From contig JAOMCQ010000001.1 of NCBI GenBank assembly GCA_028345095.1, positions 1-64,000 of the forward strand: a stretch of DNA of 64,000 bases, in the 5' to 3' direction. The stretch is from Candidatus Nitrosopelagicus sp. (GTDB lineage: Archaea > Thermoproteota > Nitrososphaeria > Nitrososphaerales > Nitrosopumilaceae). This document shows positions 1 to 48,890 of the stretch, one piece after another (position 1 is the stretch's first letter; the number at the start of each line of letters is the position of its first letter). The notes under the pieces are model-generated. The model saw only the letters and a list, made by a program, of their open reading frames with translations, was not told where the DNA came from and made no database searches. The translations under genes were made by a program, and so were the position numbers.

Positions 1-816
1 ATTCTTCAACAGGCTGATGAATTATTACGTGAATACCAAATGGCAGCTGAACTACAAAACTCCCCACTTAATCCAACTGAGCGTCCATTTTTAGTTGAAC
101 AAAATACGGAACAATTTCGAGAAGAAATTGCACAACAGATGCAATTACAAGAAACGTTAATGCAAAAATTACAACAAAACTCTAACTTTCAAAATTTTGA
201 TGAGCAATTATCTAACGACGGTTTAATTCAACAACCTCCTTCATTTGATATGTCTGATGAAGAAACTACAGTATCTGTTCCATATGAAAATGATGAAACA
301 TCTGTAACAATATCTGCTGAATTTGAAAATGGTGAAATAACAAATGTCTTCATAGAACGTCCAACTGACGAAATTGAAACTAGTCTGTTATGGGTGCTTC
401 CTCTTGTAATAGGCATCATAGCTATTGCAGTATTGTTATCAAAAAGATTACCAAAAACAAAACCTATTACAAAAATTCCAATTGTAGTGAAAAATGATAG
501 TTATACTATCAGTTATGCTGATCTAACACGTGAAATGTTACGTGAAGCTGAACATATGTACAATGAAGAATTATTCAAAGATGCCCATGAAAAACTCTCT
601 CACGCAATACGTTTCTATTACTCAAACCGTTTTTCAACTGGATCTGAGATAACAAATATGGATGCATTACAGTTATTGCGTAAGGAAAATATTCCTGAGT
701 TTGATTCAATCTTGAATTATCTAAACATGTGTGAAATGATTGAATTTGCAAAAAATCCTACGGAGAAAAAAAGATTCTTCACTGCAATAGAAAACTTTTC
801 ACAATTTATCGAATAG
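1..816 (+). CDS. Single-pass membrane protein with helical cytoplasmic domain, 5' end outside window
   Basis: The reading frame is open from base 1, so the true start lies upstream; the first Met in view is at base 40. Counting from that Met, residues 1-113 are polar and Gln/Asn/Glu-rich and probably lie outside the cell. Residues about 114-134 form one membrane segment (LLWVLPLVIGIIAIAVLL), followed by Lys-rich residues and a helical domain to the end. That domain (EAEHMYN..., AIRFYYS, MIEFAK, NFSQ) clearly matches the C-terminus of the protein starting at 7346, so the two are paralogues in their cytoplasmic part. The helical pattern recalls TPR or DUF4129-like domains, but I assign no family. 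Role unknown; it is probably a cell-surface anchor or sensor. The next gene is convergent. Confidence 0.8.
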   Translation: MLQQADELLREYQMAAELQNSPLNPTERPFLVEQNTEQFREEIAQQMQLQETLMQKLQQNSNFQNFDEQLSNDGLIQQPPSFDMSDEETTVSVPYENDETSVTISAEFENGEITNVFIERPTDEIETSLLWVLPLVIGIIAIAVLLSKRLPKTKPITKIPIVVKNDSYTISYADLTREMLREAEHMYNEELFKDAHEKLSHAIRFYYSNRFSTGSEITNMDALQLLRKENIPEFDSILNYLNMCEMIEFAKNPTEKKRFFTAIENFSQFIE

Positions 817-2162: not shown

Positions 2163-2471
2163 TTGATTGATATGAATGGTCCTGCACTTTTGAAATGCAT
2201 CTGTGATGAAACTAGATTTGAAATTTTAGAATTGTTACAAAAGGATAATGAGTTATGTGTTAACGATTTTGTAGAGAAATTAAAAAAAGATCAGCCTTTA
2301 GTTTCACACCATCTTAAAACTCTAAAAAAATGTGGAATTGTAAAGTCTAGAGATGAAGGAAAAAAGGCAATGTATGCAATTTCAAATTCTCAACTATCTA
2401 CTCTGATATCTACTGTAACTAAAACAAGCAAGAAAATTCCGACTCTATGTACCGATGAAAAATGTTGCTAG
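2163..2471 (+). CDS. arsR: ArsR/SmtB family transcriptional repressor
   Basis: A 102-residue winged helix-turn-helix protein. The core runs ETRFEILELL ... ELCVNDFVEKL ... QPLVSHHLKTLKKCGIV ... EGKKAMYAI, as in ArsR family repressors. ELCVND resembles the ELCVCD metal-sensing motif of classical ArsR but keeps only one of its two cysteines. Extra cysteines at 12, 14, 96, 101 and 102 (CTDEKCC at the very end) could complete a thiolate site for As(III)/Sb(III). The start is TTG at 2163, with an alternative ATG at 2172; the TATA position fits either. It is divergent from arsC-aquaporin, which it probably represses. The last 4 bases overlap the convergent sbtB gene. Confidence 0.85.
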   Translation: MIDMNGPALLKCICDETRFEILELLQKDNELCVNDFVEKLKKDQPLVSHHLKTLKKCGIVKSRDEGKKAMYAISNSQLSTLISTVTKTSKKIPTLCTDEKCC

Positions 2472-2770
2472 AATTTTTCTGTTCTAACTACGCCTACATC
2501 ACTAACATATAGTATAATTGCAAAATCTGGAAATAATGTCCTAGAAATATCCTCTACAACCCCTGATAATTTTTCTTCTCTCATGACTACCTCCACTTTG
2601 ACGTTTTTTTCATTTTTGAATCCCTGGCCCCGCAAGCCTTTTGCTCCATTTCCTTCTACCTCGTAAGTAGTATAACCTGTAATATCATGATTTTTCAAAA
2701 TTTCAATGACATTTTTCTGAGCTAAAATCTCACATGTGATTGTAAGTAATTTCACATCATAGAGTTTCAT
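2468..2770 (-). CDS. sbtB: P-II-like regulator SbtB
   Basis: A 100-residue P-II superfamily protein (ferredoxin-like fold): KLLTITCE near the N-terminus, a T-loop region with GNGAKGLRGQG near residues 40-50, and a final strand IILYVSDVGVV. It lacks the Tyr-uridylylation T-loop of canonical GlnB and the C-terminal Cys-rich extension of some cyanobacterial SbtB proteins. Its ATG overlaps the stop of sbtA (ATGA), so the two are translationally coupled. In cyanobacteria SbtB binds adenine nucleotides, including cAMP, and regulates the SbtA bicarbonate transporter at the membrane. The gene pairing supports the same role here; ligand preference cannot be read from sequence. Confidence 0.85.
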   Translation of the reverse strand: MKLYDVKLLTITCEILAQKNVIEILKNHDITGYTTYEVEGNGAKGLRGQGFKNEKNVKVEVVMREEKLSGVVEDISRTLFPDFAIILYVSDVGVVRTEKF

Positions 2771-3843
2771 ATGAACACCTTTGCTACATAATTGAATAAG
2801 TCTATTGATCCTTCACCGTGAACCCATGTTGAGACTGTAAACATGATTGGAAGTAATACTATGATGTTGTATGGGAATGTAATTCCTAATGCAGATGTAA
2901 TGTACAAACTTGGATTTGCTTGAGGAATTGCATGACGTAATACTGCAGGTGCTGCAATAAATGATGCACTTGCTAAGAGTAGACCAAACATTACTGCTCC
3001 TCCTAAACTTAATCCTAATGCAGTTGAAACTAGTACACCAATTATTCCATTAATGGTTGGTATTATTACCGAAAATGCTGTCAGGAAGATTCCAACCTTT
3101 TTGATGTCTTCTAGTCTTTGTCCTGCAATAATTCCCATCTCAATCATAAAAATTACAATGGCTCCTGTAAACAGCTCATCAAATACAATGCTAATTGGTT
3201 CAAATCCTTCCTCCCCAATGATGTATCCGATTACTATACTTCCTAGTAGAATAACTATTGCCTTTCCTGTGATTGATTCTTTTAAGACCTGGGAGAGTTT
3301 TGTTTTTGTCTCTTTCATTCCAATGTCTAATTCTTCATCATCTGAAAAGGACTGTTTTTTTGTACGAATTTGTTTTGAGACCGCCATGTTTGTCAGAAAT
3401 ATTGCTAGGATGAAGGCAACTGGCTCTAAAACTGCTAAGATGGCTGCCAAATATCCTTCTGATGAAACTCCTTGATTTTTGAGAAATGATAATCCTACAG
3501 AAAATGTTACAGCCCCTACTGCGCCATATGTGGAGGCTAATGCATATGAATCAAAGATATTGAATTTTCCTAGCCTTCTTAGAATTTGATAATGGTTCAA
3601 TGTAAACAACAATGAAAGACCTATTGCAACTAACATTGGGACTAACATTTCTTCAAAGCCCGTCTTTCTCATCTCTATTCCTCCATGAAGGCCGATAGCA
3701 GCTAGAAGGTATATCGGCAAAAATTCTGAAATTGCCTCAGGCATTTTTAAATCAGACTTTATTCGTGCTGCAATTATTCCAAACAGGAAGAAGAGAACTA
3801 TTGGAGTTAACAGATTCGATTGGATTAGTTGTAAAATATCCAT
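2767..3843 (-). CDS. sbtA: Sodium-dependent bicarbonate transporter SbtA (DUF897)
   Basis: A 358-residue polytopic membrane protein with about ten hydrophobic segments and the SbtA/DUF897 arrangement: LLTPIVLFFLFGI at the N-terminus, a central charged cytoplasmic loop (residues about 165-185, rich in Lys, Asp and Glu), and ASFIAAPAVLRHAIP near residue 295. SbtA symports bicarbonate with sodium. In this organism bicarbonate would feed acetyl-CoA/propionyl-CoA carboxylase of the 3-hydroxypropionate/4-hydroxybutyrate cycle, which uses HCO3- directly (inference from family physiology). The gene is followed by its coupled regulator sbtB. The ATG start is unambiguous. Confidence 0.88.
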   Translation of the reverse strand: MDILQLIQSNLLTPIVLFFLFGIIAARIKSDLKMPEAISEFLPIYLLAAIGLHGGIEMRKTGFEEMLVPMLVAIGLSLLFTLNHYQILRRLGKFNIFDSYALASTYGAVGAVTFSVGLSFLKNQGVSSEGYLAAILAVLEPVAFILAIFLTNMAVSKQIRTKKQSFSDDEELDIGMKETKTKLSQVLKESITGKAIVILLGSIVIGYIIGEEGFEPISIVFDELFTGAIVIFMIEMGIIAGQRLEDIKKVGIFLTAFSVIIPTINGIIGVLVSTALGLSLGGAVMFGLLLASASFIAAPAVLRHAIPQANPSLYITSALGITFPYNIIVLLPIMFTVSTWVHGEGSIDLFNYVAKVFI

Positions 3844-5608: not shown

Positions 5609-5788
5609 TTAATCATAACCTACAGTTCTCATGCCATAGCAAGGCTTGTTTCCCTTGGTCCAGCATTTACATGAACAAGAAACAGCTTTTCCAGTCTCTA
5701 AATCTTTTACAACTTTGTGAAACACTCCTTCTCTAACTTTTGATTCAATTGGGATTGTTTCGAATTGATCTTTTTCTGTATCTGTCAT
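5609..5788 (-). CDS. Cys-rich mini-protein resembling CDGSH iron-sulfur proteins (59 aa)
   Basis: A 59-residue protein with an acidic N-terminus (MTDTEKDQ), a middle section like the strand before CDGSH clusters (GVFHKVVKDLETGKA), then CSCKCWTKGNKPCYG. Four cysteines are spaced CxCxC...PC. A true CDGSH site reads CxCxxSxxxPxCDGSH; here the Asp-Gly-Ser-His end is replaced by CYGMR and there is one residue fewer between Pro and Cys. So either it is a divergent Fe-S or zinc site or a family of its own. Its ATG shares one base with the stop of the winged-helix gene (TAATG), so the two are translationally coupled. Confidence 0.72.
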   Translation of the reverse strand: MTDTEKDQFETIPIESKVREGVFHKVVKDLETGKAVSCSCKCWTKGNKPCYGMRTVGYD

Positions 5789-6303
5789 TATAATGATGAC
5801 ATGATATCTGCTAAGTTATCTGATGCATTCTCAACGACATCTGGGTGATACTCTGTGATTAGATTTGCAATTCTTTTCTTTTCTACAACAAAGTAATTTT
5901 TCTTCAAATCAACTTTCTTGTATGAAACAATTTCATCAGCCACTAATTTTGTTAGGTAAAATGATACTGTAGCGCTTGCTTTTCCTACATTTGCAACAAT
6001 TTCTTGAAACTCTAATCTGTCGTTTTCTAGTAATGTAACAAGAATTGCTTTTGGTGTAGTTTGTCTTAATCGTGATACGACCTTTGATTCTTCTTCAGTC
6101 ATATCATTAATGAAGAATCTTGAAACACGTGTTGTTCTTTGAGTTCTGATTACTCCGTTATTTTCTAATTTTCTAACATAGTAACTCAAAACTCCATTTG
6201 AGAGGCTAATCTTTTCCATAACTTCTCTGAATCTAATTCCAGGATTCTTTTTGATCTCTGAAATGATTAATTCTTCTCTAGATTCCATATTTGCCAATTT
6301 CAA
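5788..6303 (-). CDS. Tandem winged-helix transcriptional regulator
   Basis: A 171-residue protein with two winged helix-turn-helix units. The first (residues about 8-65) has GIRFREVMEKISLSNGVLSYYV and the wing RTTRVSRFFI. The second (about 80-145) has LEFQEIVANVGKASATVSFYL and the wing VDLKKNYFVV. This tandem arrangement is common in archaeal one-component regulators. The first possible start is TTG, overlapping the upstream stop (TTGA); an ATG five codons in (6288) is an alternative. It sits between a membrane protein gene and the Cys-rich mini-protein in one overlapping operon, so it may regulate that operon or nearby copper/redox functions (inference). Confidence 0.8.
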   Translation of the reverse strand: MKLANMESREELIISEIKKNPGIRFREVMEKISLSNGVLSYYVRKLENNGVIRTQRTTRVSRFFINDMTEEESKVVSRLRQTTPKAILVTLLENDRLEFQEIVANVGKASATVSFYLTKLVADEIVSYKKVDLKKNYFVVEKKRIANLITEYHPDVVENASDNLADIMSSL

Positions 6304-6689
6304 TCCCTCCTAAATATAGCTAATGCAAGTAGCCCAATCATTCCTAACATCATTAAATGTGAAATTTCAGATGGTGATTCTAAAATGTTGTAAACATGAG
6401 TTTTAGTTGCATCTAACAATTGAACAATTTCTGCTCCCGTGAATATCATAAATGCAATTGTAGTAATAATCATCTTCTTTGTTCTCATCTTATAGTATGC
6501 ATTTACACTAAGAATTGCAAGAAATACAGATAAAATTATGCCTGCTGTATGTAGTAATAGATGCCAGATGTGTGCTCCGTGATAAACATGAGGCATTAAA
6601 ACTGGAATTGAAAGTGCACCTACAGTTGTTAAAATAACTGCAATGAGTAGTTTGGGTTTACTATCTGCAAATCTCTGATAGCTGAACAT
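6300..6689 (-). CDS. Four-helix membrane protein of unknown function
   Basis: A 129-residue protein that is almost entirely hydrophobic, with four predicted membrane helices: LLIAVILTTVGALSIPVL, LLLHTAGIILSVFLAILSV, MIITTIAFMIFTGAEIV and LMMLGMIGLLALAIF. Several histidines cluster between and within helices 1-2 (HVYHGAHIWHLLLH) and in later segments (THVYN, SHLMML), which might bind heme or metal. I do not recognise a family. It overlaps the downstream winged-helix gene by 4 bases and is the first gene of that three-gene operon. Confidence 0.7.
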   Translation of the reverse strand: MFSYQRFADSKPKLLIAVILTTVGALSIPVLMPHVYHGAHIWHLLLHTAGIILSVFLAILSVNAYYKMRTKKMIITTIAFMIFTGAEIVQLLDATKTHVYNILESPSEISHLMMLGMIGLLALAIFRRD

Positions 6690-6743: not shown

Positions 6744-7208
6744 TCATTCTGTAACAATTATTTTTCCTTCCATCCATGGATGCAGTGTACAATAATAATT
6801 GTAAGTTCCAGAATTTGAAAACTTGTTAACAAAATATTCATTTGTCTTGATGACATCTGTTGGGAAATGAAGGTAATCTGAATCTCCTCTTACTCTGACA
6901 TTATGTTCAAAATCATCTTTATTCAGAAATAATACGCTGTTTCCCACACCAATTGTTTTTATTTTTGGAAGAAAACATCCATCATTCTCTTCACATCCTT
7001 GTTTCCATGAACCATTAATCATTTCAACAAGATGTTGTGCCTTTTCTTTAGTTGTACCGCTATACTTTGCTTCTGAATAATTAGAATTTGTATAAATTGA
7101 TGATAGTTCATCCACATTCTCAGTTTCTAGAACGAAGATTCCTAAAAGACTAACACATAATACTACAAAAATTATTCCTATAGGAATTATAATAATCCAA
7201 ATTCTCAT
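6744..7208 (-). CDS. Membrane-anchored blue-copper (cupredoxin) protein
   Basis: An N-terminal hydrophobic anchor (IWIIIIPIGIIFVVLCVSLLG) is followed by a linker and a plastocyanin-like domain. The copper ligands are visible: a His in DDFEHNVRV and the C-terminal CTLHPWM loop supplying Cys, His and Met. Such cupredoxins are abundant in ammonia-oxidising archaea and carry electrons outside the membrane. Two extra cysteines (GCEENDGCF) may form a disulfide. A GTG start three codons further upstream (7217) is possible, but the ATG used lies about 27 bases from a TATA-like sequence near 7235 and begins directly with the anchor. It is the only gene on its side of the divergent intergenic region. 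Confidence 0.85.
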   Translation of the reverse strand: MRIWIIIIPIGIIFVVLCVSLLGIFVLETENVDELSSIYTNSNYSEAKYSGTTKEKAQHLVEMINGSWKQGCEENDGCFLPKIKTIGVGNSVLFLNKDDFEHNVRVRGDSDYLHFPTDVIKTNEYFVNKFSNSGTYNYYCTLHPWMEGKIIVTE

Positions 7209-7301
7209 GTCTTTCACAAAAAATATAAATTATTATAATGTGGTTATTGATCTTTGAATCTAATTACATAATTCCTATAGTTCTACATTCTCTACATATA
7301 G

Positions 7302-7345: not shown

Positions 7346-8809
7346 TTGCAAAAAACAAGATTAATTTTATTATCATTCACAATATTTTCTTTATTTATCG
7401 TTGGGATAATTCCAATTTCATTATCAGATAATAGCGAATCAAAGGAAATTATAATTAACATTGAACCTCCACATGGTGAATTTCAAGAAACACCTACAAA
7501 AGATGAATCTGAATCTCCAGAAAATAATTCAGGTGGTTCTGGAAATGGTCCAACTTCATTTGTCACAGGGAGTAATTATGCTTTAAATGGAATTCCAATT
7601 CTAATTAACACTTCTGAGGGTGTTAGATTAAATGATCAATTAACTGATCAAGAAGACTTGAAAAAACTTGAACAAATACACGGAGAAAAATTTTGGGAAA
7701 GGGTTGATCAATTAACATATGATCATTATGGACTTGCTAATGCAATGTTTGATCCAAATACCAAAAATTCATATTTTGCAAGTGGAGGAAAGCATTCTGA
7801 AAATATAAACTCTAATTTTGAATATTATGTTCTTGAAAGAGGATATGATCCACGTGAACCTACTAAAATTCCAAACAATGTCTTCACTCCTACGAAATAT
7901 GATCTAGCTAGAGCAGTTATGCAAAAAGCTCAAGATGTTAATGCAAATAATTTGAATCTTGATACAATAAATGAATTAAATCTTGAAGTGTTATCTCCCA
8001 ATGCATTTCAGATGACTGATGAACAAGAAAATATGATGTATCACTCTGATGTTGAAAATAGAGCTTTAACAATTTTACAAGATGTTTTACCTTCCCTTTC
8101 ATCAGGTTCAAATTCTGATAATCCAAATTCTCAAAATAATGATGGTATGTCAAATCAACAAAGTCGACCACTAACTTCTATGCCTGGAAATTCTGAAAAC
8201 AATTCTATGCCTCCTTCAGTATCAACGCCAACACCAAAAATTAATGAAGAAATATTTCAAAATACTGAACATTTGAAAAATATGATTTCAAAGGAAAACT
8301 TTGAACCAAATTATGAAACTAATACTGAATTGATAATTCCTTTAACTGAAATCTTACTATCTATCATACTGGCAATTTTGACATCTATTGGTATTTTTAT
8401 AATTAGAAAACTTAACAAGAAACCAAAAAAATTAGTTGCTCCATTAGTTACAATTTCTCCAATAGATTATATCGATGAAACAGAAAAATTACTTGATTCT
8501 GCAAATCTCCTGTATAAATCAAAACAAATCAAAGATGCATATGAAAGATTTAGCCAGGCAATACGTTTCTATTACTCATATCATTATAATCTGAAACGTG
8601 AAGTTACAACTTTTGAAACTCTAACTGAAATCCAAAAAATCAGCAAATCTGAGTATAAAATAGTCTATGATTGTCTTGTGCTTTGTGGAATCATTGAATT
8701 TGCAAAGCATCATGAGAACAAAAATGATTTCAGAAAATGCATGAAAAATTTCTCTCAACTTATCAAAAATACCGATAAGACTGTATCACTTTCAGGTGTT
8801 TTCGATTGA
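7346..8809 (+). CDS. Secreted, membrane-anchored surface protein with helical cytoplasmic domain
   Basis: A 487-residue protein: signal peptide (residues about 1-27), a long extracellular part rich in Asn, Ser and Pro with many N-x-S/T glycosylation sites (a low-complexity linker at about 250-300), one membrane helix at about 329-353, then a Lys-rich stop and a cytoplasmic domain of about 130 residues. The cytoplasmic domain (AIRFYYS, IIEFAK, NFSQL) is homologous to that of the protein at the left edge of the window. Only a TTG start is available. It overlaps the next surface-protein gene by 4 bases (TTGA), so the pair is co-translated. Function unknown; the layout suggests a surface structure linked to a cytoplasmic partner. 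Confidence 0.8.
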   Translation: MQKTRLILLSFTIFSLFIVGIIPISLSDNSESKEIIINIEPPHGEFQETPTKDESESPENNSGGSGNGPTSFVTGSNYALNGIPILINTSEGVRLNDQLTDQEDLKKLEQIHGEKFWERVDQLTYDHYGLANAMFDPNTKNSYFASGGKHSENINSNFEYYVLERGYDPREPTKIPNNVFTPTKYDLARAVMQKAQDVNANNLNLDTINELNLEVLSPNAFQMTDEQENMMYHSDVENRALTILQDVLPSLSSGSNSDNPNSQNNDGMSNQQSRPLTSMPGNSENNSMPPSVSTPTPKINEEIFQNTEHLKNMISKENFEPNYETNTELIIPLTEILLSIILAILTSIGIFIIRKLNKKPKKLVAPLVTISPIDYIDETEKLLDSANLLYKSKQIKDAYERFSQAIRFYYSYHYNLKREVTTFETLTEIQKISKSEYKIVYDCLVLCGIIEFAKHHENKNDFRKCMKNFSQLIKNTDKTVSLSGVFD

Positions 8810-11367
8810 TTAAAGTCTATTCAATTATAATTTTTTCTGTTTTCCTTCTATTTTCATTGCCACCAACATTTGGTGATGAATCCGAAAATACTACATGTAC
8901 TGAAAATTGTTCAAATGTATCTGGAACTGAAAATTCCTCTGATATTGAAAGACCAAATTTTTACAAAATCATGAATCCTGATGTTCACATTAATTTTTCA
9001 AATAGTACTCATTGGGAAGGACTGTCTTCTGCAGGTGATTATTGGAATATTAAAAATGGTGAAGGACATTTTTTATTAAATGCCGAAATTAAACAGCTAA
9101 ATTCTGCAACTTTTGATTTAAATCCACTTTTAGAATCTGATGTTGGTGATGATTGGGTATTACGTTACAAATTAAAAATAGATAATTATGAACAGGGAAC
9201 AAATTCAAAATGGTCTGAATTACTTATAGGATTGTTCTCCGAATCTGTAAATGGTCTAACTCCTCAATGGGGTGTTGGTGCAGCATTTCTTAACGGAGAC
9301 GATACTAAATATACAAATCTAATGTATGGATTTGGAACATACAATGAGTGGCATTGTTGTCCAATGAAAGGAATGTTAGAAAATACGAATTCACTTCCTG
9401 GAAAAAATAAAATTTGGTGGGTAGAATATGTAAAAGATGGTGATACTTTCACCGTTAGACTCTTTGAAGATAATGATTTTAGAAAATTAATAGAACAAAG
9501 AAGTTTTACTGGATGGACTATTGATGGATTAAGATTTCTTAAAATTTTTCCATTAGTTGAAGATAATTATGCAAATGGTCACATGTATGGCCGAATTGAT
9601 GATATTAAATTTTATAATCATGAAACCACTGTTTATCAACCTGATAAAAAACCAATTCCAGATGCCCTAAAACCAAAATCATATGAAGACATGTTGAAAG
9701 AAGCATATGGCTCTGATTATGCACAAATTGAACCTATACCTGAAGAAATTTACACTTCATCAATTCCTGCGTGGTTTAAAGAAAAAGTTTCTTTGTGGGC
9801 AAATGATCAGATTCCAAATAATGAATTTTACAATATCGTTAAAGATCTTGTAATTAACGATAAAATGTTAGTAGAGGAATTATCTCTTGCATATGGACAA
9901 AAACTTGACATCACATACAAACCTCAAACTATTGAAATCCCAAAAGACAAAATCTGTTCTGTTTGTATCATGGAAAAATTCGTTCACCTAACTTGGGAAA
10001 TTCCTAATGGATTACCTAAAACTGCTAGTGCAATAGTTGAGATAACAAGTCCTCAAAATGAAATCACGAAATTCACTACCAGTTCTAAAGAAGGTTTAAC
10101 ATATCGTGTCACAAGTGATTTTTCTCCCGGCTTATACCAAATAATGATCACATATGGTAATCATACATTTGAAATTTCTCCTATACTCTTAACTCATGAT
10201 GAAATTCCAAAAATCCCATTTTGGGTAAAATATAATTCAAGTAAATGGGTAAATGGTGAATTAGAAGAAACTGAATTTATTGATTCTCTGATATTTCTCA
10301 TACAAAATGGGGAAATAACTTTTAATCATAGTATATTTGTCAAAAAAGAATCTCAAATAATAACTACTCCTCAAGAAAAACTTGAAGAATTTTTTCCAAG
10401 TCATGAAGAAATAAAAGAAATATCCCCTGAATTACCTCCTCCTCTTTGGGAATATTTGGTAACTAGTGATGCACTTAGACTTGTCAATATGGATTATGTC
10501 AGTGTACAAAAAATTCTTGAAGATAGAACTAGAACATTTGATCCAATATACAAGAAATATGCTGTACCATTCACAATGATTCAAATGTATGAATTTGATT
10601 CCAATGAAATTGCAAAAGAGTTCATTGAAGAACAAATTTGGACTAATAATGTACTCATAAAGGGAACCGTTACTGATGATGAATTAAGTTATAGTGATTA
10701 CATGTATCAACGAATATTTGAAAATGCTGATATGAGTGGTACATCTGAATTTACTGGTGATTGTTTGTATTATATGACAAACCATGCTGGTGGTGCGGTC
10801 ATGGATGAAACTCACTTTCTGCAATGTGTTCTAAATGAAAAAGTGATTCAAATCTATTTGTATGAGGATTATCATATTATCGATAAAAAATTCACTTTTG
10901 ATTTAATGGATATAATTCTAAAGAAAATAAATAACAAATCTGGAATTGAATCTGTCAATAATGTACTTGAGCTTGACAATATTGTAACTACTCACTCAAA
11001 CAGTCAACCATCAACTTCCAGTCAACCATCAACTTCCAGTCAACCATCAACTTCCAGTCAACCTAAAATGGATAGTACAGATCCTGAGATTTCAGGCATG
11101 ACTGTTGGTATTCATAACTTCGTTTGTAAGAAAGATGATTTTGGAACTATAACTATGGCTGGTCAATTTGTTAATGGCCAAAATTCATTTGAGCAGGTAA
11201 AAGTTGATATCTCTATAGAATCCTATAATGGTTCTATATTGGCATATGGCACTGATTATGTTTTGAAAATAAATCCATATGAAACACGAACTATTGATGG
11301 TTATGTGTTTGTTGAAGAACCATTCCACAAATGCAATGCAACAATTGATTGGAAAAACTCTCAATAG
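8806..11367 (+). CDS. Large secreted protein with concanavalin-like region and SQPSTS repeats
   Basis: An 853-residue protein with a signal peptide (IIIFSVFLLFSLPPTFG). Residues about 60-270 (DDWVLRYKLKIDNYEQ..., GRIDDIKFYN) look like a concanavalin/LamG-type beta sandwich. Two related short segments near 320 (IPAWFKEKVSLWANDQIPN) and 470 (IPFWVKYNSSKWVNGEL) match a helix-pair motif often seen in thaumarchaeal secreted proteins. A Ser/Gln/Pro/Thr linker of three and a half SQPSTS repeats precedes a final beta domain ending in HKCNATIDW. No C-terminal membrane helix is visible, so it is released, held by the coupled upstream protein, or bound to the S-layer (inference). TTG start. Confidence 0.8.
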   Translation: MIKVYSIIIFSVFLLFSLPPTFGDESENTTCTENCSNVSGTENSSDIERPNFYKIMNPDVHINFSNSTHWEGLSSAGDYWNIKNGEGHFLLNAEIKQLNSATFDLNPLLESDVGDDWVLRYKLKIDNYEQGTNSKWSELLIGLFSESVNGLTPQWGVGAAFLNGDDTKYTNLMYGFGTYNEWHCCPMKGMLENTNSLPGKNKIWWVEYVKDGDTFTVRLFEDNDFRKLIEQRSFTGWTIDGLRFLKIFPLVEDNYANGHMYGRIDDIKFYNHETTVYQPDKKPIPDALKPKSYEDMLKEAYGSDYAQIEPIPEEIYTSSIPAWFKEKVSLWANDQIPNNEFYNIVKDLVINDKMLVEELSLAYGQKLDITYKPQTIEIPKDKICSVCIMEKFVHLTWEIPNGLPKTASAIVEITSPQNEITKFTTSSKEGLTYRVTSDFSPGLYQIMITYGNHTFEISPILLTHDEIPKIPFWVKYNSSKWVNGELEETEFIDSLIFLIQNGEITFNHSIFVKKESQIITTPQEKLEEFFPSHEEIKEISPELPPPLWEYLVTSDALRLVNMDYVSVQKILEDRTRTFDPIYKKYAVPFTMIQMYEFDSNEIAKEFIEEQIWTNNVLIKGTVTDDELSYSDYMYQRIFENADMSGTSEFTGDCLYYMTNHAGGAVMDETHFLQCVLNEKVIQIYLYEDYHIIDKKFTFDLMDIILKKINNKSGIESVNNVLELDNIVTTHSNSQPSTSSQPSTSSQPSTSSQPKMDSTDPEISGMTVGIHNFVCKKDDFGTITMAGQFVNGQNSFEQVKVDISIESYNGSILAYGTDYVLKINPYETRTIDGYVFVEEPFHKCNATIDWKNSQ
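11002..11063 (+). repeat. 18-bp in-frame tandem repeat (3.4 copies)
   Basis: The unit AGTCAACCATCAACTTCC occurs three times in full with no mismatch, followed by 8 bases of a fourth. It encodes SQPSTS, a flexible and possibly O-glycosylated linker of the secreted protein. Perfect identity implies recent slippage, so copy number may vary between strains. Confidence 0.9.
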
Positions 11368-11396: not shown

Positions 11397-12452
11397 TTAT
11401 TCTACAATGTCTGTTCTAAGCTGACCACATGCAGCTGATATTTCTGTACCTTTTTCAATTCGAATAGTACAATTTACTCCTGCCTCCGATAAAATTCGTT
11501 TAAATTCAAACACTCTACTTTTTGATGGTCGTATAAAATCTCCTGCAGTTGGATTTATTGGAATTAAATTAACATGTGAACCATTACCATGTAATAATTC
11601 AGCAAACTCTTGTGCAATTTCACGTGAATCATTAATTCCTTCCATTAATGCATATTCGAATGTTACGCGCCTTCCAGTTTTTTTAAAATAATAATGCCCT
11701 GCGTCAATAATCTCTTCAACAGAATTTGGTGTTGCTGTTGGAACTAATTTTTTACGTAATTCATTATTTGGAGCATGAAGTGATATTGCAAGTCCAATCT
11801 GGAGATTTTCTTCAGCTAATCTCTCTATTCCTGATTTAATTCCAATTGTTGAAATTGTTATATGTCGTTGACCTAATCCAAATCCTCTAGGGTCTGTTAA
11901 AATTTTTATGGCTCTAATTGTTTCATCATAATTTGCCATGGGTTCTCCCATTCCCATAAAAACTAAATTTGTTATGTGCTCTTTTCTTTGTTCTATAATT
12001 TCTTCAAAATGTATTACTTGTGATACTATATGCTCTGCTTTTAGATTTGTATCAAAACCCATTTGTCCGGTAGCACAAAATGTGCATCCCATCGCACATC
12101 CAATTTGAGTTGAAACACATACTGTTGATCTTGGTAATCCTCCAATCTTTGATGACGCATACTGCATCAGAACTGTTTCAACAGATTTATCATTACTTAG
12201 ATTAAGTAAAAGTTTTGTAGTATCGCCATCCTCACTTGTGATTCTATGAATTTCTTGTGCTGAACCTATTGTATATCCTGCATCAACTAATTCTTCAATC
12301 ATGGTTTTTGGAAGCTGTTTAATGTCTGCAATATTTTTAGGAAATTTGTAATAAAGTGGCATCAAAATTTGATCAGCTCTATATCTATCATATCCCATAT
12401 CTATTACCAATTTTTCCATTTCTTCTGGAAGTAATCTATAGAGATCAGTCAT
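11397..12452 (-). CDS. rlmN: Radical SAM 23S rRNA/tRNA adenine C2-methyltransferase RlmN
   Basis: A 351-residue radical SAM enzyme of the RlmN/Cfr family. The CxxxCxxC cluster reads CAMGCTFC near residue 118. The signature MGMGEPMANYD follows, and the C-terminal catalytic Cys lies in AACGQLRTD. An N-terminal helical RNA-binding domain (residues about 1-90) is present and the length is normal. The enzyme methylates C2 of an adenosine (A2503 in bacterial 23S rRNA, and some tRNAs). Its presence in an archaeon suggests ancient exchange with bacteria. It stands alone, convergent with the surface-protein gene. Confidence 0.92.
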   Translation of the reverse strand: MTDLYRLLPEEMEKLVIDMGYDRYRADQILMPLYYKFPKNIADIKQLPKTMIEELVDAGYTIGSAQEIHRITSEDGDTTKLLLNLSNDKSVETVLMQYASSKIGGLPRSTVCVSTQIGCAMGCTFCATGQMGFDTNLKAEHIVSQVIHFEEIIEQRKEHITNLVFMGMGEPMANYDETIRAIKILTDPRGFGLGQRHITISTIGIKSGIERLAEENLQIGLAISLHAPNNELRKKLVPTATPNSVEEIIDAGHYYFKKTGRRVTFEYALMEGINDSREIAQEFAELLHGNGSHVNLIPINPTAGDFIRPSKSRVFEFKRILSEAGVNCTIRIEKGTEISAACGQLRTDIVE

Positions 12453-27054: not shown

Positions 27055-30000
27055 ATGCATTTGAAAAATCCTCTCCTATTTGGCCTAATGGCGATTTTAT
27101 TGTTAGGTGGTACTATAACTCCTGCACTTTCTCAAAGTTCATCTGATTCACAAATTGTAATTAATGAAATTGAACTAAACCCTAGCGGTTCGGATGCAGG
27201 TATAGGTGTTGGTGGTTCTGGCAATGAATCAAAAAGTGTTGAAGGTACTTCTGGTTCTCAAGAATATGTGGAACTTTACAATCCTACTTTACAGTCAATT
27301 GATATCGGTGGTTGGTCATTAATGCCTACTACTAGTTGGAAGTCATATGAAATTCCTGTAAACACTGTGATTGAGCCAAAATCATTTTTAGCTTTTACTC
27401 ATGTAAATTTTTGGTTCAATGACTTTGGGGATTCTATATCACTAATTGATAATACAGGTGATGTTATTGATAGTACTCCTCTTTTAGTTGATAAGGATGA
27501 CGATGGTAAATCATGGCAACGAATTATTGATGGATTAGATTCTAATTCTTTGACTGATTGGGAACTTAAAACTATGAGTCCAAGTTCATCTAATGGAAGT
27601 ATAACTGAAATAGAAACAGATTCATTCACTTTAACTGCACAAACTGATAATACATCTTATCAATTTGGTGATTATCTAACAATTTCTGGAACTGTATCTG
27701 AGAAATTATTTGTTGAGAAGCCATTCTTTACCCCCGAGATTATTAAGCTCTCTATTAAAGGTCCAAGTTATTTTAAAAACATTGCAATATTTCCTGATCG
27801 AGACTTAAATTTTTCTACAACTCTGGGACTTCAAGAAGTTCTAGGATTTAAAATTGGTACTTATGATGTTGAAATTGTTTATGGTGAAAACATTATTGAA
27901 ACTAACTTTACAATAAATGCTGATTTAGAAGTATCTCAATCTGAAATTGAAGCTGAAACTCTTAACATTTTTACAGATAAAGAATCATATATTCCTGGCC
28001 AAACTGTAACTGTTTCTGCACAAACTAATTCTCTTATTCAATATGGTGGTCTAGATTACACTGTAACTAATCCTGAAGGTAAAGTAATCTTTGAAGGAAC
28101 TATATTCCAAAATTCAGAATTTTCAATTGTACATCAACAAGGTGGAGGAGAATTATTTCCTTTTTCAACACAGCTGTTCATGCAAACTGTAAATCCTGTT
28201 TATGGTACTTATGAAATTGATGGTGTTTACAAATCACAAAACCCACGCTACTATTCCTCTGATGATGTAATTACTGCAAAATCTAGTTTTGAAGTGGTCC
28301 CAGATCTAAAAGAAGATGTCCCAATTTCTCTTTCTACTGATAAAGACGTCTATTCTGTTGGAGATACCATTAAAGTAACTGGAAGAAGTAATGTTGTCTG
28401 GACTGAAGATCTAGAGTTATCTGTTCAACAAACTAGCATTTATGCTAGAACAACAAGTACCTCTTCTGACAATATAGGTGCTGCAATTGGTCCATTCTCA
28501 TTAAAAGAAAGTGTTAGGTTAGATGGTGATGGTAGATTTTCATTTGAATTTGATCTAATTGTTGATTCTAGATTACAAGAGAATAATGAAAACAAATACG
28601 GTGATTATAAGATTACTGTAAGTGAATATTTCGGCCAAACCTCAAAAATTATTCGAGTTGTTGAGGATCCAAGTTCATTTATAGATGAAAGAACTCCTTT
28701 AGGATTAAAAACTGATAAACCTGAATATGTTTTGGGAACGGCTGTGAAAATTATAGGAAATGTAATGGATTATGAACATAAAATATCTAATAATATGCGT
28801 AACACTGTGGAAGTTTCAATTGTTGACGAAACTGGTAAAAAATTAATGTATCAAGATCGTACAACCTCGGCAAACGATTATGGAAAATCTCCTAATGCTC
28901 CATTAGTTATGACTGCAATTCCAGATTCTGTTGGAAGTTTCCAAATCGGTTTTGTATTGCATCCCATACAATTTGATTATGGAGTGTATACTGTAATAGC
29001 TACTCATCCATACTCCAACACTGTAGAATCTGTTCAATTTGAAATTAAATCTGCACAAGATGAAATTGTACCTGTAAAAGAAAGTGAAGAACCAATTACA
29101 CTAAAACTTTGTAAGAGTAATAATGCGTATGTTAAAGACATTCTAAATGATTTGCGTAGTATTGGTAGAGGTGAAATACCACCTTCTATGGAATCAGTAG
29201 ATTGTGATGACAAAAACACTTTCAAAATTGGCGACAAATTGGTAGTAACTGGAAAAGTTATCCCAAAAGCTATGACCACTTTAGATCAATCTTCTAGTAA
29301 TCCAAGTGGAAATACACAGACTGGTCATTCATACTCGACAAATTATGCTCAATCAGTTATGAATTACGTTGAGGTAACAATCCCTTATCCTAAATCGATG
29401 ACTGTTTCTGGATCTGCTTCTGTAAAAACTATACCTGATGAGGGTGAAAATTACACTGGTGGAGGTGGCTCTGGTGGCGGAGGCGGTTATTATGAAGATG
29501 AAGATGGAAATATCATTCGTGGTGATGAAGATAAAAATCAGTCTGATGAAGATAGACGTACTGGTTATGATGGTCAAGCAGTTTTGAAAAACCAAAAACT
29601 TCTGTTAACTGGATTAAAATTAAAAGCATATCCTGATGACGAAGGAAATTTTGCAGGTATATTTGAACTAAGAAAAGGGATCTTTGCTGATGGTACATAT
29701 CTAGTTAGAGCAAATTATTTTGGATACAACACTGAGCAAGGAGTTAGAGTTATTGATGAATCTATTCAAGCAGGTTCTAAACCTGAAATCATATTAAATT
29801 TAGAAAAATCTGAATTTATTCCTGGTCAAACTGTGAAAATATCTGGTAAGATAGAAAATATCTATTATTTTGATAGTGTTTCTATTAAGATAGAATCTCC
29901 TGATGTTTCAAAAATTAATTGTCTCCAAGGTCAACAGTGTGGATTTGGAAGTACCGAGAAAAAACTTAGGGTAGAGGAAGGTGTTAATGGTGCACAGTTT

Positions 30001-30612
30001 TTTTGGAATTATAAAATACCAGATAGTGACGCATCAGTTGGTGAGTATAAAATTATTGTAGATACACATTTTGGACTAGCTGAAAAAAGATTCTATGTAT
30101 TAAGTAAATCTGAAATTATTGAAAATGTTATACCTGAAACTGTTACGCCTGAAACTGCTGAATCTATATTAATTTCTAAAAAAATTATTGACAAATTCAA
30201 TAGAATCTCCGATGATAAAATTCCAATTATCTTAACAGAAAAATCTACTGATGATTTAACTCTTGAACCACGTGTAATCCAAGGATCACTATTCACTTCT
30301 GCCCGAGGTGAAGAATCTGATGTAAATCTCAGAATAACTACATCTGATGGTCAATGTGTAATTGGACAGAGTTCAGATTGTTTAGTAACTGAATCAACTA
30401 GAAAACCTGGAGCAATTTATTCAATTGTCACAATTGATGATATTAATTATAAAATCCGATACAGCGGAGATGATGTAAGACTAGAAAAATTCTCAATTGT
30501 ACCTGAAGATTCTAATTCAAAAATCAATATTGATAACTGGAATGTAGAAATTCTCAAAGATGAACAACCATCTAGATTCTATTACAAAGTATCATACGTG
30601 GCATTAGAGTAA
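27055..30612 (+). CDS. Very large secreted protein with lamin-tail and multiple Ig-like domains
   Basis: A 1185-residue secreted protein. Signal peptide about 1-26 (LLLGGTITPALSQ). Residues about 30-165 form a lamin-tail-like domain (IVINEIELNP, EYVELYNPTLQSIDIGGWSL, FGDSISLIDNTGDVIDS). Then come about six Ig/macroglobulin-like repeats with the motif tDKxxYxxGxxVxVxG at about 200, 306, 426, 552, 722 and 916. A Gly-rich acidic linker lies near 800-830 (GGGGSGGGGG, then EDEDGN). No C-terminal membrane anchor is visible. It is likely part of the cell envelope or an adhesin. ATG start; codon usage matches the neighbours, so there is no sign of recent transfer. Confidence 0.82.
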   Translation: MHLKNPLLFGLMAILLLGGTITPALSQSSSDSQIVINEIELNPSGSDAGIGVGGSGNESKSVEGTSGSQEYVELYNPTLQSIDIGGWSLMPTTSWKSYEIPVNTVIEPKSFLAFTHVNFWFNDFGDSISLIDNTGDVIDSTPLLVDKDDDGKSWQRIIDGLDSNSLTDWELKTMSPSSSNGSITEIETDSFTLTAQTDNTSYQFGDYLTISGTVSEKLFVEKPFFTPEIIKLSIKGPSYFKNIAIFPDRDLNFSTTLGLQEVLGFKIGTYDVEIVYGENIIETNFTINADLEVSQSEIEAETLNIFTDKESYIPGQTVTVSAQTNSLIQYGGLDYTVTNPEGKVIFEGTIFQNSEFSIVHQQGGGELFPFSTQLFMQTVNPVYGTYEIDGVYKSQNPRYYSSDDVITAKSSFEVVPDLKEDVPISLSTDKDVYSVGDTIKVTGRSNVVWTEDLELSVQQTSIYARTTSTSSDNIGAAIGPFSLKESVRLDGDGRFSFEFDLIVDSRLQENNENKYGDYKITVSEYFGQTSKIIRVVEDPSSFIDERTPLGLKTDKPEYVLGTAVKIIGNVMDYEHKISNNMRNTVEVSIVDETGKKLMYQDRTTSANDYGKSPNAPLVMTAIPDSVGSFQIGFVLHPIQFDYGVYTVIATHPYSNTVESVQFEIKSAQDEIVPVKESEEPITLKLCKSNNAYVKDILNDLRSIGRGEIPPSMESVDCDDKNTFKIGDKLVVTGKVIPKAMTTLDQSSSNPSGNTQTGHSYSTNYAQSVMNYVEVTIPYPKSMTVSGSASVKTIPDEGENYTGGGGSGGGGGYYEDEDGNIIRGDEDKNQSDEDRRTGYDGQAVLKNQKLLLTGLKLKAYPDDEGNFAGIFELRKGIFADGTYLVRANYFGYNTEQGVRVIDESIQAGSKPEIILNLEKSEFIPGQTVKISGKIENIYYFDSVSIKIESPDVSKINCLQGQQCGFGSTEKKLRVEEGVNGAQFFWNYKIPDSDASVGEYKIIVDTHFGLAEKRFYVLSKSEIIENVIPETVTPETAESILISKKIIDKFNRISDDKIPIILTEKSTDDLTLEPRVIQGSLFTSARGEESDVNLRITTSDGQCVIGQSSDCLVTESTRKPGAIYSIVTIDDINYKIRYSGDDVRLEKFSIVPEDSNSKINIDNWNVEILKDEQPSRFYYKVSYVALE

Positions 30613-46542: not shown

Positions 46543-47592
46543 ATGCAAAACAAAAATCGCAAAAATATGAACAATAAAGTAAAACAAGAACTATTGGGCT
46601 ATCAGTCTATTTCAGTTCAAGAAAATTTAACATATTTCAAACCTAACAAGGCAAGTACTACTGTAACCTTTGCTGAAGAAATTCGTAAATCACTTCAAGA
46701 ACCAAAAAAATCAATAAGCCCAAAATTTTTCTATGATGAAAACGGTTCAAAAATCTTTGATGAAATTTGTTCTCTTCCTGAGTATTATCCTTTTAATTCT
46801 GAAACTGAAATATTACAAACACTTGAGAAGAAATTACTCCCTTACCTTTCAAATGAATTTCATTTAGTTGAGTTAGGAAGTGGTTCTTCTGTAAAGACTC
46901 GTCTTTTAATTGATATTTTATTCAAATCTCAAAAACATTTACAATATTTTCCAATAGATATTTCAGAAATTTTAGATCAAAGTGCAAAAAATCTTTGTGC
47001 AGATTATCAGAATTTAACCGTGACTGGAGTTGTGGATACTTTTGAAAATGGTCTTGATTTTATTGAACATTATGATGATAAACCTAATTTGATAACTTTT
47101 CTTGGCTCAAGCTTTGGAAATTTCAATCAGAATGAAGGAATGAAATTTCTACAAAAAATTAACAATCTTATGAAATCTAATGACCTGTTTCTAATTGGAC
47201 TGGACTTGAAAAAGGATCAAAATATATTGCATAGCGCATATAATGATTCTCAAAAAACAACTGCAAAATTCAATCTAAATGTCTTAAAACGAATTAATGA
47301 TGAATTGGGTGCTGATTTCAATTTAGAAAACTTTGAGCATCATGCAATTTATGATGAAGAAAAGGGCAGAATTGAGATGTATCTTCGTTCATTATCTGAA
47401 CAATCCATAACTATTCAAAAATCTGCTCTATCTGTAACTTTTTCAAAAGATGAATTAATCCACACTGAGAATTCACATAAATTTTCTATTCCTCAAATAG
47501 ACTCTTTCTTAAAAGAATCTAACTTTGAAAAGCTGGAGATTTGGTTTGATTCTAAAAATTATTATTCACTTGTTTTAGCAAAAAAAATCTAA
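46543..47592 (+). CDS. egtD: Histidine N-alpha-methyltransferase EgtD
   Basis: A 349-residue SAM methyltransferase matching EgtD: SPKFFYDENGSKIFDEICSLPEYYP near residues 60-85 (in part), LVELGSGSSVKTRLLID, PIDISEILDQSA, FLGSSFGNFNQNEGMKFL and IGLDLKKD. EgtD makes hercynine (trimethylhistidine), the first step of ergothioneine synthesis. ATG start, with later Met codons possible. Its end overlaps the convergent egtB gene by 4 bases, so the two gene ends form a tail-to-tail pair. Confidence 0.93.
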   Translation: MQNKNRKNMNNKVKQELLGYQSISVQENLTYFKPNKASTTVTFAEEIRKSLQEPKKSISPKFFYDENGSKIFDEICSLPEYYPFNSETEILQTLEKKLLPYLSNEFHLVELGSGSSVKTRLLIDILFKSQKHLQYFPIDISEILDQSAKNLCADYQNLTVTGVVDTFENGLDFIEHYDDKPNLITFLGSSFGNFNQNEGMKFLQKINNLMKSNDLFLIGLDLKKDQNILHSAYNDSQKTTAKFNLNVLKRINDELGADFNLENFEHHAIYDEEKGRIEMYLRSLSEQSITIQKSALSVTFSKDELIHTENSHKFSIPQIDSFLKESNFEKLEIWFDSKNYYSLVLAKKI

Positions 47593-48890
47593 AGATCTTT
47601 TACACATCTGAATCCTGAAATCATCCATCTTTCATCTAATCTGAAAAAATTTCTATAGGATCCTCTGATTGATTTTAATGGTGTTCCAAAAGATCCTCCC
47701 CGTAAAACTTTTTGATTTGTAAACCACTTGTCATTATATTCATCAAATCCACTTTTGAATCCTGGGTATCCTATAAACTCCGATGAAGTCCATTCCCAAA
47801 CATCTCCTATCATTTGGTAACATCCATAGCTGCTTTTTCCATTCTCGTAAGCTCCAACATCGCTACAATTCCAAATATTTGATTCTAACAAATTTGCATA
47901 TAATTCTGTAGGTTTTTCATTTCCCCACGGGAATGTTGTTTTAATTTTTTTATCATCATTCCATAATGCTGCTTTTTCCCATTCTGCCTCTGTTGGCAGT
48001 CTCTTATTTGCCCACTTGCAATATGCCGCTGCTTCATAGAAGCTTACATGGCACACAGGTTCGTTAGGATTAATTTTACGTTTTCCTCTGAAATCTCTTG
48101 TAATCCATTTATCGTCATCTTTTTCCCAATACATAGGAGATTCCCATCCATTTTTCTTTACTGCATCCCAGCCATCTGAAAGCCAAAATGAATAATCCTC
48201 ATACCCACCTTCTTTCATAAATTCCAAATATTCTGAATTACTTATCAAAAAATTATCAATTTGATAATCATTTAGATATGTTTTATGTTCTGGAAGTTCT
48301 ATATCATAACAATAATCATTTCCAGAATAACCCATGTTATACAATCCCCCATTAATCTTGATACTTTTCTTTTTATTGTTTGTTGAAACTACTGATTCAT
48401 TTGTTTTTGCCGGTCTATATTGATCCCCTAAGAGATGTTGTAAATCATAAACTAAAAGTTCTTGATGTTGACATTCATGATTAATTGCCATTGTAAAAAG
48501 ATATGCAGCTTCTTTTTCTAATGGTTTACTGATGACCTCTCTAACTCTATTTGTTATTACATCAAAGTATTGTAATATTTCATCTACTGTTGGTCTTGAC
48601 ATTACTCCTCGTTTTGATTTATCATGTGGTTTTCCAAATTGGTTATAGTATGAATTTAGATATTCTGAAAGTTCATCTGAAAAAAATTCATAATTAAGTT
48701 GCGTCTTACTTAACACGATTTCATTCAACCAGCTTACATGTCCTATATGCCATTTTGGTGGACTCATAAAAACTGCTGTCTGTACTCCAAAATCATCTCT
48801 TTCTAAATTTTTTACTAATTGTAGTGTGGTATTTCTTGTTTCATTAAATGAATTTAGTAGAAAATTTTGAGTTGGTTCTTCAAGTGTCAT
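47589..48890 (-). CDS. egtB: Ergothioneine-type sulfoxide synthase EgtB
   Basis: A 433-residue mononuclear iron enzyme. An N-terminal DinB-like domain carries the iron ligands: His51 in HIGHVSW and His138/His142 in NHECQHQE. A C-terminal formylglycine-generating-enzyme-like domain (about 175-430) contains VCHVSFYEAAAYCKWANKRLPTE (in part), LRGGSFGTP and FRLDERWMISGFRC. EgtB couples hercynine with a thiol (gamma-glutamylcysteine or cysteine) and O2. No EgtA, EgtC or EgtE gene is nearby, so the thiol donor is unclear. ATG start. Confidence 0.93.
   Translation of the reverse strand: MTLEEPTQNFLLNSFNETRNTTLQLVKNLERDDFGVQTAVFMSPPKWHIGHVSWLNEIVLSKTQLNYEFFSDELSEYLNSYYNQFGKPHDKSKRGVMSRPTVDEILQYFDVITNRVREVISKPLEKEAAYLFTMAINHECQHQELLVYDLQHLLGDQYRPAKTNESVVSTNNKKKSIKINGGLYNMGYSGNDYCYDIELPEHKTYLNDYQIDNFLISNSEYLEFMKEGGYEDYSFWLSDGWDAVKKNGWESPMYWEKDDDKWITRDFRGKRKINPNEPVCHVSFYEAAAYCKWANKRLPTEAEWEKAALWNDDKKIKTTFPWGNEKPTELYANLLESNIWNCSDVGAYENGKSSYGCYQMIGDVWEWTSSEFIGYPGFKSGFDEYNDKWFTNQKVLRGGSFGTPLKSIRGSYRNFFRLDERWMISGFRCVKDL

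Follow-up and report, generated by a model that had tools for sequence, protein, structure and literature searches.

A candidate transmembrane adaptor and its secreted partner in a Bat-like MoxR machine of Nitrosopumilaceae

Operons of the Bat type (Bacteroides aerotolerance) comprise MoxR, DUF58, the VWA proteins BatA and BatB, and BatD, as described in PMC3557215 and PMC5700661. For NorQ/NorD, PMC9976466 describes a MoxR–VWA pair that remodels its client with ATP. Here, we describe a pair of coupled genes in a window of 64 kb from Candidatus Nitrosopelagicus sp. The window opens contig C1 (135,853 bases) in a 66%-complete assembly of 895 kb. The two products are named A (487 amino acids, aa) and B (853 aa), and C denotes the partial protein at the left edge of the window. 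We hold it moderately probable that A serves as transmembrane adaptor in a Bat-like MoxR machine of Nitrosopumilaceae, that B is its secreted partner, and that the machine acts on envelope proteins. This reading builds on observed homology, gene coupling, co-occurrence and predicted topology, from which we infer the contacts, the client and the work done.

With the Bat operons, the cluster shares MoxR, DUF58, a BatA-type VWA protein with three transmembrane (TM) segments and an external VWA domain, and an exported single-TM protein in fourth place. It differs from them in that the fourth gene is not PF13584 BatD, that A-type operons add the secreted B, and that it is archaeal and located beside surface layer (S-layer)-like genes. 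NorQ/NorD and RavA/ViaA (PMC9976466 and PMC3893208) likewise combine a MoxR AAA+ ATPase with a partner of VWA fold, represented here by DUF58 inside and the BatA-like VWA outside, but the cluster bears an extra transmembrane adaptor and a secreted partner. The MoxR–vWA ternary conflict systems, as given in PMC7159879, also consist of a MoxR–vWA core with a third variable component, whereas no enzymatic effector, VMAP or iSTAND component was recognised here. Finally, PMC4858521 describes a thaumarchaeal vWA–MoxR/GvpN pair linked to type IV pili (arCOG02900/arCOG00441), in which an archaeal MoxR-like ATPase and a vWA protein are similarly tied to surface structures; it may or may not overlap this cluster, at which no pilus genes were noted. 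The accessible portions of the literature on MoxR in ammonia-oxidizing archaea and Nitrosopumilus (PMC4858521, PMC6704131) yielded no description of the A–B pair.

The inner domain and the exteriors of A and C

The features of A and C are, in coordinates of the window:

7346..8809, plus strand: gene A, a 487-aa membrane protein with signal peptide, exterior, one TM helix and cytoplasmic helical domain; TTG start
7559..8095, plus strand: conserved exterior of A (about residues 72-250), from the alignment; predicted local distance difference test (pLDDT) of the model mostly below 60; unrelated to the C exterior
8348..8404, plus strand: TM helix of A (residues 335-353), positive side toward the C terminus; model helix 333-357
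8453..8785, plus strand: cytoplasmic domain of A (residues 370-480), helical and HEPN-like in the model; common to C proteins
8558..8578, plus strand: 21-base run identical to 604-624, coding for AIRFYYS; compared with codon-shuffled controls
1..816, plus strand: 3' part of C (271 aa), fourth gene of a MoxR-DUF58-VWA-C operon; the 5' part (176 aa) lies on contig C9
382..438, plus strand: TM helix of C, from topology prediction
499..780, plus strand: cytoplasmic domain of C, a homologue of the A inner domain (BLASTP, profile)

The predicted topology of A consists of a signal-like segment (residues 6-24) and the single TM helix, with a net charge of -3 before and +6 after it. The original prediction held that the cytoplasmic helical domain of A is homologous to that of the protein at the left edge, and the alignments agree: residues 239-474 of A align to the open reading frame (ORF) at 1-816 with a BLASTP E of about 1e-18 in a small local set, and an inner-domain profile built from 20 A-family rows matches C at residues 169-257 with E 1e-27 in a 48-protein set. 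In this set, which represents 48 loci hand-picked from those fetched, the profile recovers 47 of the 48 A and C proteins, 20 of these being its own A rows or near-copies. The motifs AIRFYYS, IEFAK and NFSQ are present in both translations as had been stated, and the run of about 20 identical bases comes to 21 in frame (604-624 and 8558-8578), against at most 13 in 20 codon-shuffled controls. Equally, the extracellular parts proved unrelated, as the similarity between A-type and C-type exteriors is not above chance (best cross matches E 0.06 to 1). The proposal of a common cytoplasmic adaptor under different exteriors thus finds its counterpart in a shared inner domain that is joined to two unrelated exterior families.

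The history of this domain was followed in a tree of 46 rows and 100 columns, from which the near-copy L145 was omitted (as also from the VWA tree below) and into which the ANME-1 locus L161 entered as a C row. Two changes are needed for the A rows, and grouping them in a single clade is not rejected (p 0.353); hence, one origin of A is not claimed. For L161, the inner domain had suggested an A type, which was ruled out by its C-type exterior.

The model of A (A6) reaches a mean pLDDT of 54.7, with a confident inner domain at about 69-93 per ten residues. Compared with solved structures, the inner-domain model matches 3mfn with Z 13.0 (root-mean-square deviation, rmsd, 2.2; 107 aligned) and the HEPN structure 2hsb with Z 12.3 (rmsd 2.8; 112 aligned), and most of the top 20 matches are named HEPN—at Z values that helical bundles reach by chance. 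A search of solved chains with the sequence profile returned no HEPN chain, only enolase and Ets domains that were judged to be chance matches. Within the domain an Arg is nearly invariant, but in the domains listed no His follows it consistently, as the Rx4-6H nuclease motif of HEPN proteins would require. Hence, from its conserved residues the inner domain is expected to act as an adaptor rather than as a nuclease.

Neither A nor B has an assigned Pfam or NCBIfam family. For A, the original prediction had itself raised the alternative of a generic TPR-type helical domain that occurs by chance in unrelated surface genes, and a weak Pfam TPR_2 match exists (E 0.83, 10.4 bits against a cut-off of 27). 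The model, however, is contrary to a TPR identity, with HEPN-type bundles as best solved matches, and the domain forms a conserved single-domain family in related contexts, tied to MoxR clusters, so that we regard this alternative as highly improbable. A resemblance to the C-terminal domain of DUF4129 was also dropped, since 0/5 genomes gave a PF13559 match with E up to 10 (the control gave matches in 10/14).

Gene order, co-occurrence and the proposed machine

The extension to the left of base 1, which the original prediction had suggested, leads to contig C9 of the same genome. At C9:1-3389, all on the minus strand, it holds MoxR (2367-3389), DUF58 (1487-2377), VWA (533-1483) and the 5' part of C (1-530), while the remainder of C opens C1. 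In the relatives L067, L063, L068, L069, L070 and L071, C likewise comes fourth, behind MoxR, DUF58 and a BatA-like VWA protein. For L067, MoxR is assigned to the AAA+ ATPase family PF07726 (E 1.5e-64) and the DUF58 protein to PF01882 (E 2.4e-64). The VWA protein matches the BatA N-terminal family PF07584 (E 5.2e-11) and VWA PF00092 (E 1.5e-21); its metal ion-dependent adhesion site (MIDAS) motif DxSxS is invariant in 10/10 rows, and its profile matches BatB 3ibs (E 2.7e-22). The predicted layout of three TM segments puts the VWA domain outside the cell—a topology shown by experiment for Borrelia BB0173, which bears TM segments at nearly the same places (PMC5700661).

The members of the inner-domain family were traced with their neighbours, and they are tied to MoxR clusters. 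In a survey of 37 A loci, 13 of them from Nitrosopelagicus, a MoxR, DUF58 or VWA gene adjoins A in 23 (gap -25 to 301 bp). The remaining 14 are the 13 Nitrosopelagicus loci and one at a contig edge; outside Nitrosopelagicus, A hence adjoins the cluster in 23/24 loci. Five of these (L116, L119, L120, L123 and L124) show the order MoxR-DUF58-VWA-A-B on one strand, and in others A diverges from MoxR over a short gap. Since A stands beside the MoxR cluster elsewhere and C within the MoxR operon here, A and C are, judging by sequence, two versions of one component with a common inside domain and unrelated outside parts. The original prediction had seen here a candidate for an undescribed surface system, which holds for the missing Pfam and NCBIfam families; because the adaptor belongs to MoxR-DUF58-VWA machines, it is, however, a new branch of a known kind rather than a wholly undescribed system.

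The coupling of A and B is tight. Their reading frames overlap by 4 bp in the window, and B adjoins A in 34/37 loci (gap -8 to 42 bp), while the three loci without B end 36-185 bp past A at a contig end. B lies on the same strand as A in 23/34 loci and on the opposite strand in 11/34, i.e., it stays beside A even when flipped. This supports the earlier view of the second gene as a large secreted partner, which is co-conserved with one of the exteriors.

On the level of genomes, presence was surveyed across the family in a set of 250. Matches of A or C type occur in 55/250, VWA in 56/250, and both in 49. Matches of the B profile are mostly to its W-rich modules; therefore, only core matches were counted for B, read by hand among the matches listed and with W-rich-module matches excluded. 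The full A type is found in 40/250 genomes, the B core in at least 40 and both in at least 38, so that at least 38 of 40 genomes with A bear a B core match; among the 13 genomes with C type only, the matches listed contain none to the B core (0/13). Fisher tests give p values of about 1e-37 (A or C with VWA) and 1e-40 (A with B core), which overstate the evidence because the genomes are related. Among 397 genomes drawn from the phylum, the full A type is seen only in this family and a C-type match in one other family; in ANME-1/Methanophagales, C-type genes are located after DUF58 and VWA. The discordant genomes are as follows. Of the seven in which VWA appears without A or C, contig ends truncate 125, 128 and 168, a VWA fragment is all that 146 has, and in 065, 074 and 076 VWA is in fact followed by a C-like gene. 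A or C appears without VWA in six: contig ends truncate 109, 119 and 166; 015 and 019 are incomplete assemblies of Nitrosopelagicus that yielded only a second A–B pair (pair 2, see below); and 201 has a lone 237-aa C-type fragment (L200:6763-7476 in G201), with no MoxR, DUF58 or VWA gene within 15 kb.

Among the matches listed, B accompanies only the A exterior, not that of C. In a VWA tree of 36 rows, the 17 A-adjacent and 19 C-adjacent proteins separate by one change (Shimodaira–Hasegawa-like approximate likelihood ratio test, SH-aLRT, 93). The adaptor exterior and the VWA protein thus appear to have changed together, which fits a contact between them outside the cell.

In the machine that we propose, the motor would be cytosolic and made up of the AAA+ ATPase MoxR and DUF58, a protein of VWA fold, and it would work on the short cytoplasmic helical domain of A. 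On the outer side of the membrane, B would be held jointly by the A exterior and the BatA-like VWA domain, and an S-layer-associated client would be held via B. ATP-driven remodelling might then pull or release this complex and help envelope proteins to mature or assemble. C would be an alternative adaptor with an unrelated exterior and without B.

A variable exterior over a constant interior would also suit a sensor, in which the A exterior and B sense the state of the envelope or a ligand and the HEPN-like inner domain signals to a MoxR/DUF58 switch, along the lines of the MoxR–vWA threshold switch proposed in PMC7159879. We consider this unlikely, as no effector domain was recognised in the cluster, PADLOC gives weak partial matches to MoxR only, and the neighbours are structural or surface proteins.

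A reading as a defence system was rejected, with no PADLOC match for A, B, C, VWA or DUF58 and the weak partial ones for MoxR alone. An A-like match in G011 was dropped, since it sits in a gene cluster without MoxR. In one Nitrosopumilus genome, A is split into two ORFs by a stop (L113:8736-9971 in G199, and L141), and the MoxR cluster and B look intact.

Modules of B and the S-layer surroundings

The features of B in the window are:

8806..11367, plus strand: gene B, an 853-aa secreted partner; TTG start, signal-like N-terminus, no other TM
8965..9630, plus strand: concanavalin/glucanase-like beta-sandwich (residues about 54-275), from a structure match; seen only in B proteins of Nitrosopelagicus
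9760..9870, plus strand: first W-rich module (IPxWxK..W; residues about 319-355), from the alignment
10207..10320, plus strand: second W-rich module (residues about 468-505), from the alignment
10381..10971, plus strand: core domain (residues about 526-722), from alignments; common to all B proteins
11101..11355, plus strand: C-terminal beta domain (residues about 766-850) with a conserved C..DDFG pattern, from alignment and model

The model of B (A7) has a mean pLDDT of 65.1. Residues 54-275 match concanavalin/glucanase folds, at best 5ly8 with Z 14.2 (rmsd 3.6; 197 aligned), and in the alignment this domain is absent from the B rows outside Nitrosopelagicus. The core has no sequence match in the PDB. 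The W-rich module (IPxWxK..W....I.D..F...I..L...G.I) occurs in many secreted proteins, the B profile matching at least 246/250 genomes of the family, and no Pfam or NCBIfam name came up for B.

An S-layer-like gene lies within three genes in 27/34 A–B loci, where some matches may stem from common W-rich modules; six A–B loci have neither an S-layer-like nor a BNR gene within this distance. Two of the S-layer-like neighbours match the N. maritimus S-layer structure 8c8k (E 7.9e-5 and 2.1e-23) at about residues 1376-1557, which lie near the membrane-proximal end according to PMC11153153. In G031 (2.05 Mb), no C gene accompanies the MoxR cluster, from which the A–B pair runs divergently; the genes after the pair encode a winged-helix protein, an S-layer-like protein, a BNR protein and a TlpA/CcdA protein. 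From such neighbouring genes we infer an S-layer-associated client.

These archaea oxidize much of the ocean's ammonia, and to our knowledge little is known about the assembly of their envelope and about machines that act outside their membrane. The present analysis singles out five linked genes for joint testing, giving A and B, which lack a named family, a likely machine. The natural swap of the adaptor offers a way to ask how MoxR motors reach clients across a membrane. In ammonia-oxidizing archaea, the S-layer sieves ammonium, as described in PMC11153153.

The detached pairs of Nitrosopelagicus

Several observations weigh against the adaptor reading. The window's pair lies outside the operon at 6.5 kb from C, and 0/13 Nitrosopelagicus A loci adjoin a MoxR cluster. 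Where a Nitrosopelagicus genome has a VWA match, it has a single one, and the matches placed in the tree are of C type; hence, the cognate A-type VWA is missing exactly in Nitrosopelagicus. G025, 99% complete and in one contig, has one C operon and one A–B pair far apart, again with the cognate A-type VWA missing. Within three genes of the window's pair there is no S-layer-like gene, only a plastocyanin gene. The exterior of A has no confident fold, and BatD (PF13584) has a match with E up to 1 in 0/3 genomes (the control gave matches in 4/14) and is not among the Pfam matches of 8 C and 20 A rows. That the Nitrosopelagicus pairs may no longer use a MoxR motor is the chief weakness of the adaptor reading for this window.

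The original prediction placed the inner domain at a second locus, which is right for C at the left edge and understates the case, since the same genome holds a second A–B pair (pair 2; 479 and 824 aa, C1:89247-93179) with 38% and 39% identity to the window's pair (pair 1). The region of pair 2 (L018:3027-12409; C1:87026-96408 in this genome) is conserved in the genus. Pair 2 is flanked there by a 736-aa S-layer-like protein and by a BNR-repeat protein with W-rich modules followed by a TlpA/CcdA thiol protein, with a divergent double winged-helix gene upstream; these neighbours match those of the A–B pair of G031, minus the MoxR cluster. In the inner-domain tree, pair 2 has a long stem (1.03).

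Pair 1 was seen only here and in G001, there as a B fragment 52-60% identical, which flanks the operon on the opposite side, 1.65 kb away from MoxR. Pair 1 is thus no more than 7 kb distant from the MoxR-C operon in both genomes, and the side differs between them (window/L189 and L067). In the window, it is flanked by a plastocyanin-like gene (6744-7217) and RlmN (11397-12452). In G014 (L068:1819-3341), the RlmN and plastocyanin genes meet in a 4-base overlap that leaves no gene between them, and hence pair 1 was either inserted at this place or cleanly lost in G014.

As the Nitrosopelagicus pairs no longer stand beside a MoxR cluster, they would have to borrow the C-type operon if they are still MoxR-driven. 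Alternatively, they might have been freed from MoxR and act on their own at the surface, as a receptor or by binding carbohydrate; B would have acquired a lectin-like domain, and in A the inner domain would be a leftover or have new partners. The lack of a MoxR cluster at all 13 loci, the sole VWA of C type, the long stem of pair 2 and the concanavalin-like domain restricted to the B proteins of this genus speak for such a release. On the other hand, the inner domain is still conserved, pair 1 keeps close to the MoxR-C operon in both its genomes even on different sides, and the inner domain of the 487-aa protein is 46% identical to that of a C protein of the same genus. We regard a release as possible but doubtful. 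Within the adaptor reading, a wider version can be offered only tentatively: a second Bat-like MoxR lineage of ammonia-oxidizing archaea might have specialised for building or policing the S-layer, in which the exterior and VWA changed together, the inner domain stayed constant, B was added, and the pairs of the open-ocean genus Nitrosopelagicus plug into another motor, that of C type.

Further genes of the window are noted here. The plastocyanin gene has as neighbours a double winged-helix regulator (5788-6303) and, with it, a small membrane protein (6300-6689), and a related winged-helix regulator recurs near A–B/MoxR loci of other genera. A secreted multi-domain protein of 1185 aa, large for so compact a genome, is encoded at 27055-30612. 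At 46543-48890, two convergent neighbours resemble, by eye, an EgtD-type methyltransferase and an EgtB-type protein (DinB plus FGE-sulfatase), possibly for an ergothioneine-like synthesis; such an EgtD/EgtB-like gene couple is also located near the MoxR-C operon in L063, L068 and L070.

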